A model generated the notes under the pieces. The model saw only the letters and a program-made list of their open reading frames with translations, did no database searches and was not told where the DNA came from. A stretch of 21,772 nt of DNA from a virus, in IMG/VR virus record IMGVR_UViG_3300039047_000009, positions 8,987-30,758 of that record. One strand, given 5' to 3'. A program made the translations under genes and the position numbers. The first letter of the stretch is position 1. Each line of letters begins with the position of its first letter. Positions 7,103-12,444 of the stretch are shown piece after piece.

Positions 7103-7318
7103 TTAAACCAACATTGATGTTACAACTGCTATAGACAAAGCGCCAAGAAAACCAAACACGCCAAAGGTTGCAGTTTTTATTGTTAAATTAATTCTAGTGA
7201 TTTCTTCTTTGATGTCTGAAAATTCATTGAAAGCAGTTTTCCAACGCTCGTGTGATATTGTTTCTAACTTTGTAAGTCTTTCTGCAACATCTTTGACTGT
7301 CATTTTTTTTATTGTCAT
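7103..7318 (-). CDS. Small coiled-coil membrane protein, XhlA/holin-like
   Basis: A 71-residue protein starting MTIKKMTVKDVAERLTKLET. A charged amphipathic helix (about 8-45) precedes one C-terminal transmembrane segment (about 50-70, TFGVFGFLGALSIAVVTSML). This is the topology of XhlA-like haemolysin/holin accessory proteins. It overlaps the cyclase gene by one base (TGATG) and sits 1 base from the 3-TM holin. It is probably a lysis accessory protein or antiholin. A membrane anchor working with the cyclase is an alternative. Confidence 0.65.
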   Translation of the reverse strand: MTIKKMTVKDVAERLTKLETISHERWKTAFNEFSDIKEEITRINLTIKTATFGVFGFLGALSIAVVTSMLV

Positions 7319-9069
7319 CAGACTGTATATATTTTTAAATAATCTTTTTTACCTTTCACCTTTATAGGTTTTAGTGATTTTAACTCAAAATCACAATTTT
7401 TTGCAGTATTTTCACCAATCAATATATCCTCGCCGACTTCTTTTGTTGCTGATTCAAGTCTTGCAGCTGTATTTACCGCATCACCAATAGCAGAATAATC
7501 AAACCTAGTATCTGATCCCATGTTGCCTATGACTGCTTCACCAGAGTTGACACCAATACCTATAGCAACTGGTTCTGGTAAGGTTTTTTGTAATCTATTT
7601 ATAGCTGTTCTCATATCTTGTGCGCAAGCTATTGCTCTTTTTTCATGTTCATCAATGTCCAGCGGTGCATTAAATATTGCCATACAAGCATCACCTATAA
7701 ATTTATCAACCATGCCACCATGCGCTTGTATGCAAGTTACCTGTTCTGTCAAAACTTTGTTCATTATGTCTGTAACTTCTTCTGGTGATAATTTTTCAGA
7801 TAGATTTGTAAATCCTCTAACATCTGTAAATAAAAAAGTGCAGTATCTTTTTTCGCCACCAAGTTTTAAAAGTTCTGGATTGTCTTGTAACTGTTTTACT
7901 TGTCTAGGATCAAGATAGTGTTCAAATTGTTTTTTAATCTGCTGACGCAATTTATATTGTTTTTGGTAGTTTAAATAAAAAGCAATAGTAGATGTAAAGA
8001 TTTGTGACACAAAAGTCCATGAAAAATCCAATAAAATGCCCTTTTGGATGCTAAAAACTCCTGAGAAGCCCGTAGTGAGCAAGAAAATTACAACTATACT
8101 TGCACCCTTAACTACATTGAAATAATTGATTGTGAGCCATGTCAGAGTGACAAAAATTGTCAAAATCAAGATTTCGGCCGCTTTTGACCAATCAGGTATG
8201 TATGGAGAGTTCTGTACAAGTATTGATTCAGATAATGCAGCTTGAACCTTATGTGGTTCTACTAAACCAACTGGAGTTGCAATTTGTGGCATGACTCCGT
8301 TAGCAGTTACGCCAACAAAAACAAACTTACCTGCAACATGCATTTCTTCAAGAGTTGTTTGTGGAGTATCAACCCAGCTGATCCACTTACGACCAAAACT
8401 ATCTGTTTTGACTGGTGGTATTCCTCGTATTGATATTTCTTCAATACCATTATCATTAGTTTTTATAATGTAAGTTTCTACACCTAATAGAGATTTATAT
8501 ATTTGTGTTCCAAAACTAGGTATCCATTCGTTGTTTGGTGTTTTAACTAATAAAGGTATTCTGCGAACTAGATTATCAATATCTGTGGGAGCAACGGCTA
8601 AACCTTGTAAAGCGTGGTTTGATAGTAGAGGTAGGTTTTCCTTCACTCCCGAAGAAATTATACCACCATTATCATTACCAATAACAACTGTGCCTGGTGA
8701 ACTTGGATAGTTGCCTTTGCCATCTTCAAACATAGCTAAAACAGATGGAGCAAACTTTAATGATTCTGCAAATATTTCATCACCACCCATACGATCAGCT
8801 TGTGGAAAACTAACAACCCAGCCAACACCTATTGCACCATTGTTGATTAAATCTAGCTGAATCTCAGCTAATCTTTGTCTTGGTAATGGCCAACCACCTT
8901 CACGCTCAATATCATCTTCAGTAATATTTAGTATTACAAAATTGCCTGATTCTTCTGGTGTTTTTACAAAAGCATCAAACACTTTTAGTTTTAGTATTTC
9001 TGTAGGCGTTGATTCAAAGATCAAAGGAAAAGAAAGTAATATAAGTAAAGGTAATAATAGTTTGTTCAT
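7318..9069 (-). CDS. CHASE2-domain class III adenylate cyclase (membrane sensor)
   Basis: A 583-residue protein. A signal anchor (about 3-20) leads to an extracytoplasmic CHASE2 domain (about 28-285, with GGWPLPRQRLAEI and FVFVGVTANGV), then about three transmembrane helices (298-318, 322-342, 348-367) and a cytoplasmic class III cyclase (about 405-583). Active-site residues are complete: metal ligands Asp416 (FTDVRGF) and Asp460 (KFIGDACMAIF), Lys456 and Ser526 at the purine-selecting positions (as in bacterial adenylate rather than guanylate cyclases), and Asn533/Arg537 for the transition state. It should turn ATP into cAMP in response to an unknown periplasmic signal. FecR and CHASE2-cyclase genes are often neighbours in bacteria, as here. 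Its presence in a phage genome is the odd part. Confidence 0.92.
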   Translation of the reverse strand: MNKLLLPLLILLSFPLIFESTPTEILKLKVFDAFVKTPEESGNFVILNITEDDIEREGGWPLPRQRLAEIQLDLINNGAIGVGWVVSFPQADRMGGDEIFAESLKFAPSVLAMFEDGKGNYPSSPGTVVIGNDNGGIISSGVKENLPLLSNHALQGLAVAPTDIDNLVRRIPLLVKTPNNEWIPSFGTQIYKSLLGVETYIIKTNDNGIEEISIRGIPPVKTDSFGRKWISWVDTPQTTLEEMHVAGKFVFVGVTANGVMPQIATPVGLVEPHKVQAALSESILVQNSPYIPDWSKAAEILILTIFVTLTWLTINYFNVVKGASIVVIFLLTTGFSGVFSIQKGILLDFSWTFVSQIFTSTIAFYLNYQKQYKLRQQIKKQFEHYLDPRQVKQLQDNPELLKLGGEKRYCTFLFTDVRGFTNLSEKLSPEEVTDIMNKVLTEQVTCIQAHGGMVDKFIGDACMAIFNAPLDIDEHEKRAIACAQDMRTAINRLQKTLPEPVAIGIGVNSGEAVIGNMGSDTRFDYSAIGDAVNTAARLESATKEVGEDILIGENTAKNCDFELKSLKPIKVKGKKDYLKIYTV

Positions 9070-10188
9070 TTAATCACTCTGAGTGATAGTAATTATACTA
9101 TCGCTACCTCCATTTATTTTAATAACATTAGATACACCATCTTGTATTAAAATTACTGTATAAGCATTACTGCCATTAACATCAACTCTTACGCTTTCAT
9201 TTACCTGCCTACGCAAACTAACAACATTACCTGTAATCAAAGCAGTTATTTGTGTGTCTGGATCTTTACCTAACAAAGTACCAGCAATTTGTGTGCTTGT
9301 TGCTTGTGCTAGCACATCTTCATCTTCATCTATTGCTAAAGCATCTAATACATTTAGCAAATCTTCAAGAAAGTTTACATCTAAGTAATTTATATCAAGT
9401 TCAGTAAATTCTAAACTATCGTTCTCTAAATAATCTTCTGCTAAATAATCAATATCAAGATCATTAAAATCTAAAACACTATCTGCTTTTGTTGTAGTGG
9501 TTTCTTCTTGGACTAACGCTTCTTCTTTTGGTGGTGAAACAATTAACATATTATCAATAATATCAAGTGTCAGATCCAAAATAACTGGTTTGGTAGGTGC
9601 TGATTCAAATACGCTTACAGTAGTTGCTTCGTAGGGTTTGTTGAGTATGACAGTTCCCATAGCTGTAACAACTTCTATTTCTCCACTAGATAAACCAAAA
9701 GGATCTGGCAAAAGAATAATTAGACTTCTGCCAAGTTCATCTACAGTTGCAGTAAAGTCTGTACCACGAATAGCTATATTAGCTGTAGGTGTTTTAAGAG
9801 AAATATTTTGTTTATCTATACGATTTAGATTGCCTGTGATAAATCTTGCCGTACCAAGACCGAAGGTAAGAGCCATTTTTGCTTTGCTTGGGTCTGGATC
9901 GTATATATATTCGTCTATAAGTAATTTAGACCATTCAGTAAGTTTGACAGTAGATTTATCAAGAAAAGTGATTGCCATACGGCCATCTTTTGTTATGGCT
10001 TCATCATTACTTTGTATAGCAAAATCAACATCAGCAACATAGGATTTATCTCTGACTATTTCGGCCTTGCCGTTTAGTTCAGATATATCTCCAATATCAA
10101 CAGCTTGTGCTTGTACCCTGGTCGTTTTGAATGACGCAAACAGTAGAAGCAGCAGTACCAGAAATGGATATGATTTTAAGCCAGTCAT
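9070..10188 (-). CDS. FecR-domain periplasmic protein with curlin-like C-terminal repeats
   Basis: A 372-residue protein with a clear signal peptide (MTGLKSYPFLVLLLLLFASF, cleavage probably after VQA or AQA, about 27-29). A FecR domain spans about 60-165: the part DGRMAITFLDKSTVKL and the part TPTANIAIRGTDF are diagnostic. Residues about 237-282 form an acidic Leu-rich tandem repeat (DLDIDYLAEDYLEND, then ELDINYLDVNFLEDL). The last 40 residues contain curlin-like strands with Gly-Ser/Gly/Val-x-Asn spacing (VDVNGSNAYTVILIQDG, then VSNVIKINGG) and end ITITQSD. The start lies within the curlin-like gene (92-base overlap), and the stop abuts the cyclase start. It probably sits in the periplasm, bridging the secreted repeat protein and the CHASE2 sensor. 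Confidence 0.85.
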   Translation of the reverse strand: MTGLKSYPFLVLLLLLFASFKTTRVQAQAVDIGDISELNGKAEIVRDKSYVADVDFAIQSNDEAITKDGRMAITFLDKSTVKLTEWSKLLIDEYIYDPDPSKAKMALTFGLGTARFITGNLNRIDKQNISLKTPTANIAIRGTDFTATVDELGRSLIILLPDPFGLSSGEIEVVTAMGTVILNKPYEATTVSVFESAPTKPVILDLTLDIIDNMLIVSPPKEEALVQEETTTTKADSVLDFNDLDIDYLAEDYLENDSLEFTELDINYLDVNFLEDLLNVLDALAIDEDEDVLAQATSTQIAGTLLGKDPDTQITALITGNVVSLRRQVNESVRVDVNGSNAYTVILIQDGVSNVIKINGGSDSIITITQSD

Positions 10189-10822
10189 TGTCTTGTGTGC
10201 TTAGTTGTGAAACATTAAATGTTCTTGATCCGCCTGTATGGTCCAAGTAAAAATATCCACCAGCTGATGCAGTTACGCCTGTTCCTGTATAAGTTACTGT
10301 ATTGTCAGATCCATCAATATCCATATAGTTGGTAGCGCCATCTATATTAATATTTGATGTAACAGTATTATTAGATCCGTTAATAATCCAATCTAAGTCT
10401 AGTTGTGAAGCCAAAGCAGTTGTGCCTTGATTTAGAGTGAATGTGTTGCCACTTCCTGTGACATCAACATTTTGGTTTGATCCGTCAGAACTATAAGTAT
10501 CTGTTGGATCTACTTGAATGGTAAAAGTATTAGTGCCACCATCAAACTCATAAAAACCTGTAAAAGTATCAGCAAATATGTCACCTAAGAATTTGTTACT
10601 ACCACCAATCATGTTTATATCTAATGTCATGGTATTACCATCTAAATCAAAAGGATTTAGACTACCTGCTGTAGAGTTAAGACCGCCAATAATATTTGAT
10701 ATGCCAAGTTGTTCCAGGTCTATGTTTGCACCTGTGCCAGATTGATCTATGTAAATTTCATTGTCAGCCGCGTATGTTGTCAATGCAGTCAGCATCACAA
10801 TCAGGCTTATCAATTGTTTCAT
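10097..10822 (-). CDS. Secreted curlin-like repeat protein (CsgA/CsgB-like candidate)
   Basis: A 241-residue protein with signal peptide MKQLISLIVMLTALTTYA and cleavage near residue 19. The mature N-terminus has the curlin spacing Gln-x-Gly-(n)-Asn...Gln-x-Gly-x-x-Asn (IDQSGTGANIDLEQLGISN, 25-43). About ten further short beta-strand units follow with Gly-Ser/Gly-x-Asn turns (for example IIGGLN, GGTNTF, GSGNTF, NGSNNTV, DGSDNTV). It is strongly acidic and Asn/Thr/Gly-rich, as in amyloid-forming or beta-solenoid surface proteins. Two Cys near the end (229, 241) may form a disulfide. AAGGAG about 13 bases before the ATG fixes the start inside csgG (59-base overlap). It is the likely cargo of the neighbouring CsgG pore. 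Confidence 0.78.
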   Translation of the reverse strand: MKQLISLIVMLTALTTYAADNEIYIDQSGTGANIDLEQLGISNIIGGLNSTAGSLNPFDLDGNTMTLDINMIGGSNKFLGDIFADTFTGFYEFDGGTNTFTIQVDPTDTYSSDGSNQNVDVTGSGNTFTLNQGTTALASQLDLDWIINGSNNTVTSNINIDGATNYMDIDGSDNTVTYTGTGVTASAGGYFYLDHTGGSRTFNVSQLSTQDNDWLKIISISGTAASTVCVIQNDQGTSTSC

Positions 10823-11663
10823 GTTTTAATTCTACTCCTTCATTATTGTTTTGTAAAACCCAAAAACCTTTTTCATAACCTTGTTCTATAATTTCTAAAA
10901 CAGCACCCTCTATAGCTTTCATCAAAGCTATGGTTGATGATTCGTTGCTAGCGTTACCAAGTTCTATTTCTACTAACTCGGTGTTTGCCTCTATAAATCT
11001 AAATACATCCTCTGATTTACCATAGCTAAATATAGTTTTTTGACTCAATACTTCTAGCAAAACCTCACCAGTTGCAACAGATACCATACGCAAACTAACA
11101 GTAATATTATCTTCTCTGTATTGCACACTGTTGCCAATGCCTAAATATCTTGCACCAACACCGCCACTTTCTAAGTTTGCTTCGTAAGATATGACAGCGC
11201 CTTCAATCAATATACCAGCAAACAACAAAGGTCTAAGTGCTTTTTTCTTTTCTTCTTCTGTTGCAGTTTGTTCTCTTGCTGATCTAATTAGTTGACGCTC
11301 TTTGGTTAAATTATCTAAACCAACTCGTTCAACTACCCTAAAAAACTTGCCGTCTCCAGCGTGCTTCAAGGCTCTTATTAACAAAGCATTGGGCTGTTGT
11401 GTAATAGCCGTACTAAACAAAGCAAACTCACTATTACTTTTTCTTTGTCCAGTCTGATCTGTAAAAGCTGTAGGATAAACCGCCACTACAGGACTCACTA
11501 GGGGAATTGCTGCGTTTTTTAACTCAGGAGATTGCAAGTCCTGTATTGACGCTATATCTTTTGCTTCAAACCTTTGCTCATAGGTATCGTCTAGTTGGTA
11601 AAATAAAGAACAACTAGAAAGTAAAAGTACCGATAGGTATAACGATAGTTGTGATTGTTCCAT
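10764..11663 (-). CDS. csgG: CsgG-type curli secretion channel, outer-membrane lipoprotein
   Basis: A 299-residue protein, a little longer than the bacterial CsgG as I remember it. A lipoprotein signal ends in the lipobox LSSC with Cys18 as the lipidated residue. The diagnostic block SGGVGARYLGIGNSVQY (167-182) and SLRMVSVATGEVL (190-202) match CsgG closely, as do ISYEANLESGG, ALKHAGDGKFFRVVER and EKGFWVLQN. The family forms a nonameric beta-barrel pore that exports curlin subunits. Against my memory of E. coli CsgG, the constriction tyrosine and asparagine are not kept, while the phenylalanine is (Phe83). The C-terminus carries an extra tail with CDADC. It overlaps the CsgF gene (50 bases) and the curlin-like gene (59 bases). 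Confidence 0.93.
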   Translation of the reverse strand: MEQSQLSLYLSVLLLSSCSLFYQLDDTYEQRFEAKDIASIQDLQSPELKNAAIPLVSPVVAVYPTAFTDQTGQRKSNSEFALFSTAITQQPNALLIRALKHAGDGKFFRVVERVGLDNLTKERQLIRSAREQTATEEEKKKALRPLLFAGILIEGAVISYEANLESGGVGARYLGIGNSVQYREDNITVSLRMVSVATGEVLLEVLSQKTIFSYGKSEDVFRFIEANTELVEIELGNASNESSTIALMKAIEGAVLEIIEQGYEKGFWVLQNNNEGVELKHETIDKPDCDADCIDNIRG

Positions 11664-12036
11664 CTTGCTCGGTTATAGTTAGGGTTAATGTTGTGCCATC
11701 ACTTGTATATTCTATGGTATTACCCTCTAAAGTTATAGTGCCAGAGCTTTGTGGTGTTTCACCAAATAAATTATTTACTAACTGTCTTGATAGTTCTGCA
11801 TAGACTCTTGATTCAAGATTACGCATAAACCTAGCAAGTGTAGAGTTTTCTTTGTCCCTTTCTATTTCATCTTGTAAGGCTTTTATTTCTTCTTTGATTG
11901 TAAGTTTGCGAGTATGTTCTTGGTTTTCTATGGTTAGGTAATGACTTGATGTACCTATGCCATTAAAACTTGGCGACTTAAATTTATGAACTATCTGATC
12001 TGCTTTTATATTTATTGAAATAATACCAATTAACAA
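11614..12036 (-). CDS. csgF: CsgF-like curli assembly factor (start uncertain)
   Basis: The conserved region begins at DQIVHKFKSPSFNGIGTSSH, which aligns by eye with the mature start of bacterial CsgF (a Phe-Arg-Asn-Pro-x-Phe-Gly-Gly pattern). This is the part that plugs into the CsgG barrel. The C-terminal strands (NTIEYTSDGTTLTLTITEQD) also fit CsgF. A helical linker (about 47-90) lies between. CsgF holds the curlin nucleator at the cell surface. The first usable codon is TTG 12036, which leaves a hydrophobic leader of only 12 residues. The frame is open up to 12093 and encodes a better basic-plus-hydrophobic signal peptide, so the true N-terminus is probably longer (see the frameshift entry). 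It directly precedes csgG. Confidence 0.85.
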   Translation of the reverse strand: MLIGIISINIKADQIVHKFKSPSFNGIGTSSHYLTIENQEHTRKLTIKEEIKALQDEIERDKENSTLARFMRNLESRVYAELSRQLVNNLFGETPQSSGTITLEGNTIEYTSDGTTLTLTITEQDGTITTIVIPIGTFTF

Positions 12037-12074: not shown

Positions 12075-12113
12075 CTTTTTGATGTCTCTTGATTTAGTCT
12101 TTTCTTTGGTCAT
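12075..12113 (-). other. Possible -1 frameshift site supplying the CsgF signal peptide
   Basis: An ATG at 12113, preceded by AAGG 9 bases upstream, opens a short frame (MTKEKTKSRDIKK) that ends at a TAA near 12051. Slipping back one base on CAAAAAG (12081-12075) moves it into the CsgF frame and yields ...KKDQIAKAVFIIGIGLLIG..., a textbook signal peptide. A-AAG is a known bacterial slippery motif. A sequencing error in the A5 run, or a non-ATG start, would explain the same pattern. Confidence 0.4.
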
Positions 12114-12444
12114 CCCTATCCGCCTTTGCTAATTTTTCTATATCAATCAAGTTTGGCACACCTAACAAAGTTTTTAACAATACATCCTGTCTAATACTTT
12201 GATTGTCAACGGCTCTAACTCTATCAATAAGACTTACAATAATACCATATTGACTGTCTAATTTAGTTGTCACGCGCTCTTCCATAGTATCTAAACTTGT
12301 TTGTACCTTGTCATCTAAGGTATCTAACTTAGTTTCCATACCATCAATGATCCTGTTGATAAGTTTCCACACAAAAACTCCAAGACCAAGCGCTGCCGCT
12401 ATTGGAAAACCAACCTCGGTAATTAGTGCAACAGCATCACTCAT
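12094..12444 (-). CDS. Small membrane protein, BhlA/holin-like
   Basis: A 116-residue protein. One N-terminal transmembrane segment (about 8-33, GFPIAAALGLGVFVWKLI) is followed by a long charged coiled coil with TKLDTLDDKVQTSL and a helix containing IDRVRAVDNQSIRQDVLL. The GFPIAAALGLG-x-FVWK start resembles the phage holin / bacteriocin-like BhlA group. The start overlaps the preceding gene by four bases. It lies directly upstream of the curli genes, so it may be a holin, or a membrane partner of that module. Its stop is in the same frame as csgF, so readthrough would fuse the two. Confidence 0.65.
   Translation of the reverse strand: MSDAVALITEVGFPIAAALGLGVFVWKLINRIIDGMETKLDTLDDKVQTSLDTMEERVTTKLDSQYGIIVSLIDRVRAVDNQSIRQDVLLKTLLGVPNLIDIEKLAKADRDDQRKD

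Follow-up and report, generated by a model that had tools for sequence, protein, structure and literature searches.

A FecR-domain protein encoded in a phage-borne curli operon carries an export signal and a C-terminal tail that occurs only in curli-linked FecR proteins, ends in a short strand motif found in all of these tails and, in the clade examined here, matches most core positions of a curlin kernel if a shortened second arc is allowed. The tail likely ends in a curlin-like degenerate repeat, and its resemblance to curlin is too weak to prove that it joins the fibre. The cassette itself is known; this clade of phages differs from the published ones in its FecR tail with the curlin kernel and in having no second curlin gene.

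A curli cassette in a podovirus-like phage

The stretch of DNA analysed (the window, 21,772 nt) is part of the virus record IMGVR_UViG_3300039047_000009, which is 30.8 kb in its entirety. The virus is a marine, podovirus-like phage. Its portal is of the SU10 type and shares no more than about 43% identity with those of the closest isolates listed; its terminase is a distant relative of the epsilon15 enzyme. Five consecutive genes, in the order csgF-csgG-curlin-fecR-CHASE2 cyclase, form a type VIII secretion (curli) cassette:

11614-12036, minus strand: CsgF (PF10614, 2.9e-16)
10764-11663, minus strand: CsgG outer-membrane secretion channel (PF03783, 6.9e-46)
10097-10822, minus strand: curlin-like exported protein, 241 aa (weak curlin matches)
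9070-10188, minus strand: FecR-domain protein, 372 aa (PF04773, 7.9e-9)
7318-9069, minus strand: CHASE2 - adenylate/guanylate cyclase (PF05226, 3.6e-28; PF00211, 5.7e-23)

The window thus holds together the genes for CsgG, CsgF, a curlin-like protein, FecR and a cyclase that characterise phage T8SS cassettes, and the start of the cyclase gene abuts the stop of fecR. The operon is essentially invariant, with csgG and csgF upstream of fecR in 126/126 cases and the cyclase downstream in 148/149.

The same cassette was published for Pelagibacter phage HTVC008M, Methylophilales phage Melnitz and metagenomic pelagiphages (PMC9599517, PMC9004378, PMC7029224), with FecR and the cyclase already included (PMC9599517), so the cassette as such is not new. 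In the pelagiphage and methylophage cassettes (HTVC008M, Melnitz), csgF, csgG and the curlin-like, fecR and cyclase genes occur in identical order, and their FecR is 36-38% identical to the window FecR over 86-92% of its length. By comparison, a second curlin gene is missing from the window's clade, its FecR tail contains the curlin kernel, and its phage is podovirus-like. Phage curli cassettes are widespread in the ocean, viral CsgG and FecR having been reported at all 65 GOV2.0 stations (PMC9599517).

A 92-nt stretch (10097-10188) is shared, in different reading frames, by the curlin-like gene and fecR, so that the code for the FecR signal peptide lies over that for the curlin C-terminus; an identical overlap was found in 72 distinct loci of the window's clade. 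Upstream of csgF, 12094-12444 encodes a 116-aa membrane-anchored coiled-coil protein without a kinase domain; the gene matches by position the 'histidine kinase' of PMC9599517, a label that may be a misannotation. Farther away, 639-1289 encodes a 216-aa protein with internal repeats, with a 60-nt tandem repeat at 1057-1205, which is probably a structural beta-repeat protein.

The FecR protein has an export signal and a conserved acidic linker

The FecR protein is a full-length member of phrog_37870, with 596 relatives in IMG/VR, and comprises the following parts:

10105-10188, minus strand: Sec signal peptide, residues 1-28 (hydrophobic core, AQA cleavage-like end)
9574-10101, minus strand: FecR domain, residues about 30-205 (Pfam, AF2, Foldseek)
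9292-9573, minus strand: acidic linker, residues 206-299 (AF2, conservation)
9073-9291, minus strand: C-terminal beta domain, residues 300-372, only in curli-linked FecR proteins
9079-9162, minus strand: curlin-like 1.5 repeat, residues 343-370 (YTVILIQDGVSNVIKINGGSDSIITITQ; kernel score)

All representatives of the family have hydrophobic leaders, and PF04773 was found in 34/34 members. The FecR domain directly follows the signal peptide, no other Pfam domain being present, and its AF2 model (pLDDT 83-94 for residues 31-120 and 64-91 thereafter) has a predicted fold like that of the PupR periplasmic signalling domain (Foldseek 6ovk_R, E 1.1e-4). The protein thus has this fold in common with the FecR / PupR cell-surface signalling proteins but, unlike them, showed neither an N-terminal cytoplasmic anti-sigma domain nor a membrane helix before the FecR domain in Pfam and sequence analyses.

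This architecture bears on the published view of FecR as a transcriptional regulator, of the iron/citrate type, that controls the curli genes. The FecR Pfam domain agrees with that view, and the protein was called an iron-dependent regulator in PMC9599517; nevertheless, the label is unlikely because the protein lacks both the anti-sigma domain and the membrane helix, and has instead an N-terminal signal peptide. Moreover, many exported proteins with no relation to FecI have a FecR domain, and we consider regulation of this type very improbable. The protein would rather be an exported accessory of the phage-borne type VIII system, with a FecR domain that would be located periplasmically or on the outer membrane and act as the putative partner of the neighbouring CHASE2 cyclase.

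Pairs of FecR and CHASE2 cyclase also occur without curli in Campylobacterota (PMC9239204), with an exported FecR beside the cyclase as here, and we found fecR directly upstream of a CHASE2 cyclase gene without nearby curli in four loci (L191, L197, L214 and L226) from bacteria of several phyla. Unlike the window FecR, the FecR proteins of pairs without curli have no such tail or terminal motif. The simplest reading is that a FecR partner of the cyclase may have gained a tail for the curli apparatus.

The sequence-only reading had described an acidic, Leu-rich linker before the last strands, and this linker is real. Within residues 239-278, nine Leu/Asp positions (L239, D240, L244, L249, L264, D265, L269, L274 and L278) do not vary among 33 diverse relatives, and the Leu residues have a period of 5 residues (P 0.008). 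AF2 modelled residues 215-297 as disordered, and such conservation is unusual for a linker predicted to be disordered.

An acidic and strongly conserved linker would also fit a protein that replaces the missing CsgE, as a periplasmic gate or chaperone at CsgG, with the linker in the basic pore and the beta tail holding curlin subunits until secretion. CsgE is indeed absent from these cassettes (PMC9599517), and the CsgGF channel is predicted to be positively charged (PMC9004378). However, we found no sequence or fold link to CsgE, and FecR-cyclase pairs occur without any curli pore, making this replacement quite unlikely.

The tail is restricted to curli-linked FecR proteins

We searched genomes at three taxonomic levels around the Caulobacteraceae relatives (class, 385 genomes; family, 149; phylum, 399; the sets overlap) and obtained full-length FecR matches in two Caulobacteraceae only, the other FecR proteins aligning over residues about 27-205. 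Since FecR from outside curli loci aligns only over these residues, the tail belongs to curli-linked FecR. Both Caulobacteraceae contain csgF-csgG-curlin-curlin-fecR-cyclase between ordinary chromosomal genes, indicating that the arrangement is not a phage invention. With the Caulobacteraceae FecR as query we found no viral relatives, and CsgF searches across Alphaproteobacteria yielded short loci, with flanks too small to show a FecR neighbour. Contigs binned as Planctomycetaceae and Candidatus Pelagibacter (L162 and L206) carry the cassette, and these may be misbinned phage contigs. Additionally, a 1.5-kb 'Salmonella phage' record, OR851715.1, encodes a CsgG that is probably host DNA contamination.

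The C-terminus of the window FecR reads VDVNGSNAYTVILIQDGVSNVIKINGGSDSIITITQSD, and both this string and its strand-turn spacing had been correctly described from the sequence alone; likewise, the neighbouring protein (10097-10822) does carry the units that had been compared with it, such as INGSNNTV, besides its weak curlin matches. We defined a terminal motif as hydrophobic-x-hydrophobic-x-Q, followed by 0-3 residues to the C-terminus. This motif was present in 203/203 distinct curli-linked FecR tails, which are not independent because of common ancestry, as compared with 0/79 unlinked FecR proteins and 25/4082 other ORFs. Among the curlin-like proteins of the same cassettes, the motif was found at the very end in 80/242 and at no more than 12 residues from the end in 212/242. 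For instance, a Caulobacteraceae curlin ends in GTDHNITITQ, as compared with GSDSIITITQSD in the window FecR, and a myophage second curlin ends in CTITVNQN. Neither Q232, the last Gln of the curlin-like protein, nor Q370 of FecR varies.

Resemblance of the tail to curlin

A curlin kernel, N-x-hydrophobic-x-hydrophobic-x-Q-X-G-X-X-N-..., with a repeat near 23 residues, was derived in PMC10192328 from 53,574 segments of curlin repeats. Residues 343-370 match 11/13 core positions of this kernel as a degenerate 1.5 repeat when arc 2 is given 3 residues, a length that we chose after inspecting the sequence, the published arcs having 4-5 residues. On those terms, just one of 4082 background ORFs scores 11/13, and that ORF is a true curlin; one shuffle in 5000 does so. 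Among the tails, 115/172 attain this score, equalling true phage curlins. By both comparisons, of the terminal motif and of the kernel score, the resemblance exceeds chance. With the published arcs of 4-5 residues, the score of the window protein drops to 9, which 8% of the background ORFs reach. The distance from Q349 to Q370 is 21 residues, versus the published repeat near 23, and the 21-residue self-similarity of the tail is weak (P 0.007-0.02). Of the published strict signatures (PMC10192328), QX10Q occurred in 13/172 tails and NX5QXG in 0/172.

Profile methods did not support homology. Pfam Curlin_rpt (PF07012) had no match in 34 family members at E values up to 10, and no curlin was recovered when the tail was scanned against NCBIfam and PHROGs. 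Comparison of the FecR C-terminus with the curlin-like profile, proposed in the sequence-only reading as a check of their similarity, produced hhalign scores of 19-23, above the 99th percentile of shuffled sequences (18.3) and no better than the CsgF control (19.6); we thus rejected this score as evidence of homology. With a single-unit HMM made from the curlin-like proteins, FecR tails ranked just below true curlins, with E about 1.7 each. An apparent high-scoring background in this search proved to consist of second curlin genes.

In the best of five AF2 models, residues 300-372 form six strands with pLDDT 77-84; only this model was good, mean pLDDT being 70, 58, 48, 42 and 38 for the five. 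Its predicted strands are joined by two 2-residue turns, which suggests antiparallel hairpins, of which such turns are typical, rather than the beta-arcs of curlin with its left-handed parallel beta-solenoid. Both faces of strand 343-349 are hydrophobic, the outward I346 and I348 being nearly fixed, and in the model these turns and the two-faced hydrophobicity point to a small antiparallel domain. Core-facing positions of the tail showed no significant excess of conservation over the remaining positions (P 0.16), and a Foldseek search with the whole FecR model returned, for the tail, insignificant antiparallel matches only.

It is hence possible, if somewhat doubtful, that the tail is a small antiparallel beta domain of an ordinary kind with another job, for example as a binder of the CHASE2 domain or of the cell envelope, its curlin likeness being convergent or compositional (Gly-Ser-Asn turns, beta-branched strands). 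The hairpin turns and six-strand layout of the model, the outward hydrophobic isoleucines, the lack of a curlin Pfam match and the CsgF control equalling curlin all agree with such a domain, as do the myophage and Caulobacteraceae tails, whose kernel scores of 7-9 are at background level. Conversely, the exact terminal motif is common to the tail and the curlin-like subunits of the same cassettes, and no non-curlin background ORF reaches 11/13 of the kernel. From the choice of arc, the Pfam result, the CsgF control, the turn lengths and the hydrophobic faces, the homology of the tail to curlin is not established. What stands of the curlin likeness first noticed in the sequence is the resemblance of the end to a degenerate half-repeat and an ordered, beta-rich best model, but not homology by profile.

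The kernel and the second curlin gene

The kernel is confined to the window's clade, a single branch (support 100/99), and this clade lacks a second curlin gene, which in the other phages follows fecR. The kernel occurs without a second curlin in 120 loci, and a second curlin next to fecR occurs without the kernel in 40. Seven loci depart from this pattern: L368 and L369 have a one-residue deletion in the kernel, in L162 and L306 the second curlin was missed by our search, the two Caulobacteraceae have both curlins upstream of fecR, and the seventh is L309. Gain of the kernel and loss of the second curlin make up one event on one branch, so their link is unreplicated and the pattern is suggestive.

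We tentatively favour a role for the FecR protein as an exported accessory of the curli system: its beta tail would contact the fibre or the pore, and its FecR domain would serve the cyclase. The conserved acidic linker would carry the C-terminal beta domain, the last strands of which may imitate the terminal half-repeat of curlin, and the tail could dock on the curlin-like subunit, on the growing fibre or on the CsgG-CsgF pore. In the window's clade, the tail would have acquired a near-complete 1.5 curlin kernel in phages without a second curlin gene and, since the kernel appeared where that gene is absent, FecR may do a CsgB-like job, anchoring or nucleating as a minor subunit and reporting the state of the fibre to cAMP signalling. 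We infer the contact of the tail (fibre, CsgF or CsgG) and its mode of action (nucleating, capping or anchoring) from these comparisons; the original proposal, that the tail templates the amyloid and connects it to the sensor, is a plausible hypothesis.

CsgB, the curli nucleator, and the window FecR are alike in being exported and encoded beside the major curlin, and the degenerate C-terminal curlin repeat of CsgB (PMC10192328) can be likened to the FecR tail. CsgB, however, consists wholly of curlin repeats, whereas in the window FecR no more than 1.5 repeats follow a FecR domain and a linker. An extended version, in which this signalling protein stands in for the second curlin, with the 1.5-repeat tail capping or nucleating the phage-directed amyloid and the acidic linker possibly threading through the CsgG-CsgF pore, thereby coupling fibre growth mechanically to the CHASE2 cyclase and to cAMP in the infected host, seems to us unlikely. 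If the tail does engage the curlin fibre, the cassette would be a fibre-plus-sensor unit, and the current reading of the FecR protein as an iron regulator would be corrected.

The second curlin of HTVC008M (L158:7019-8341) contains a PA14 domain before its curlin repeats, suggesting that this fibre protein may bind sugars.
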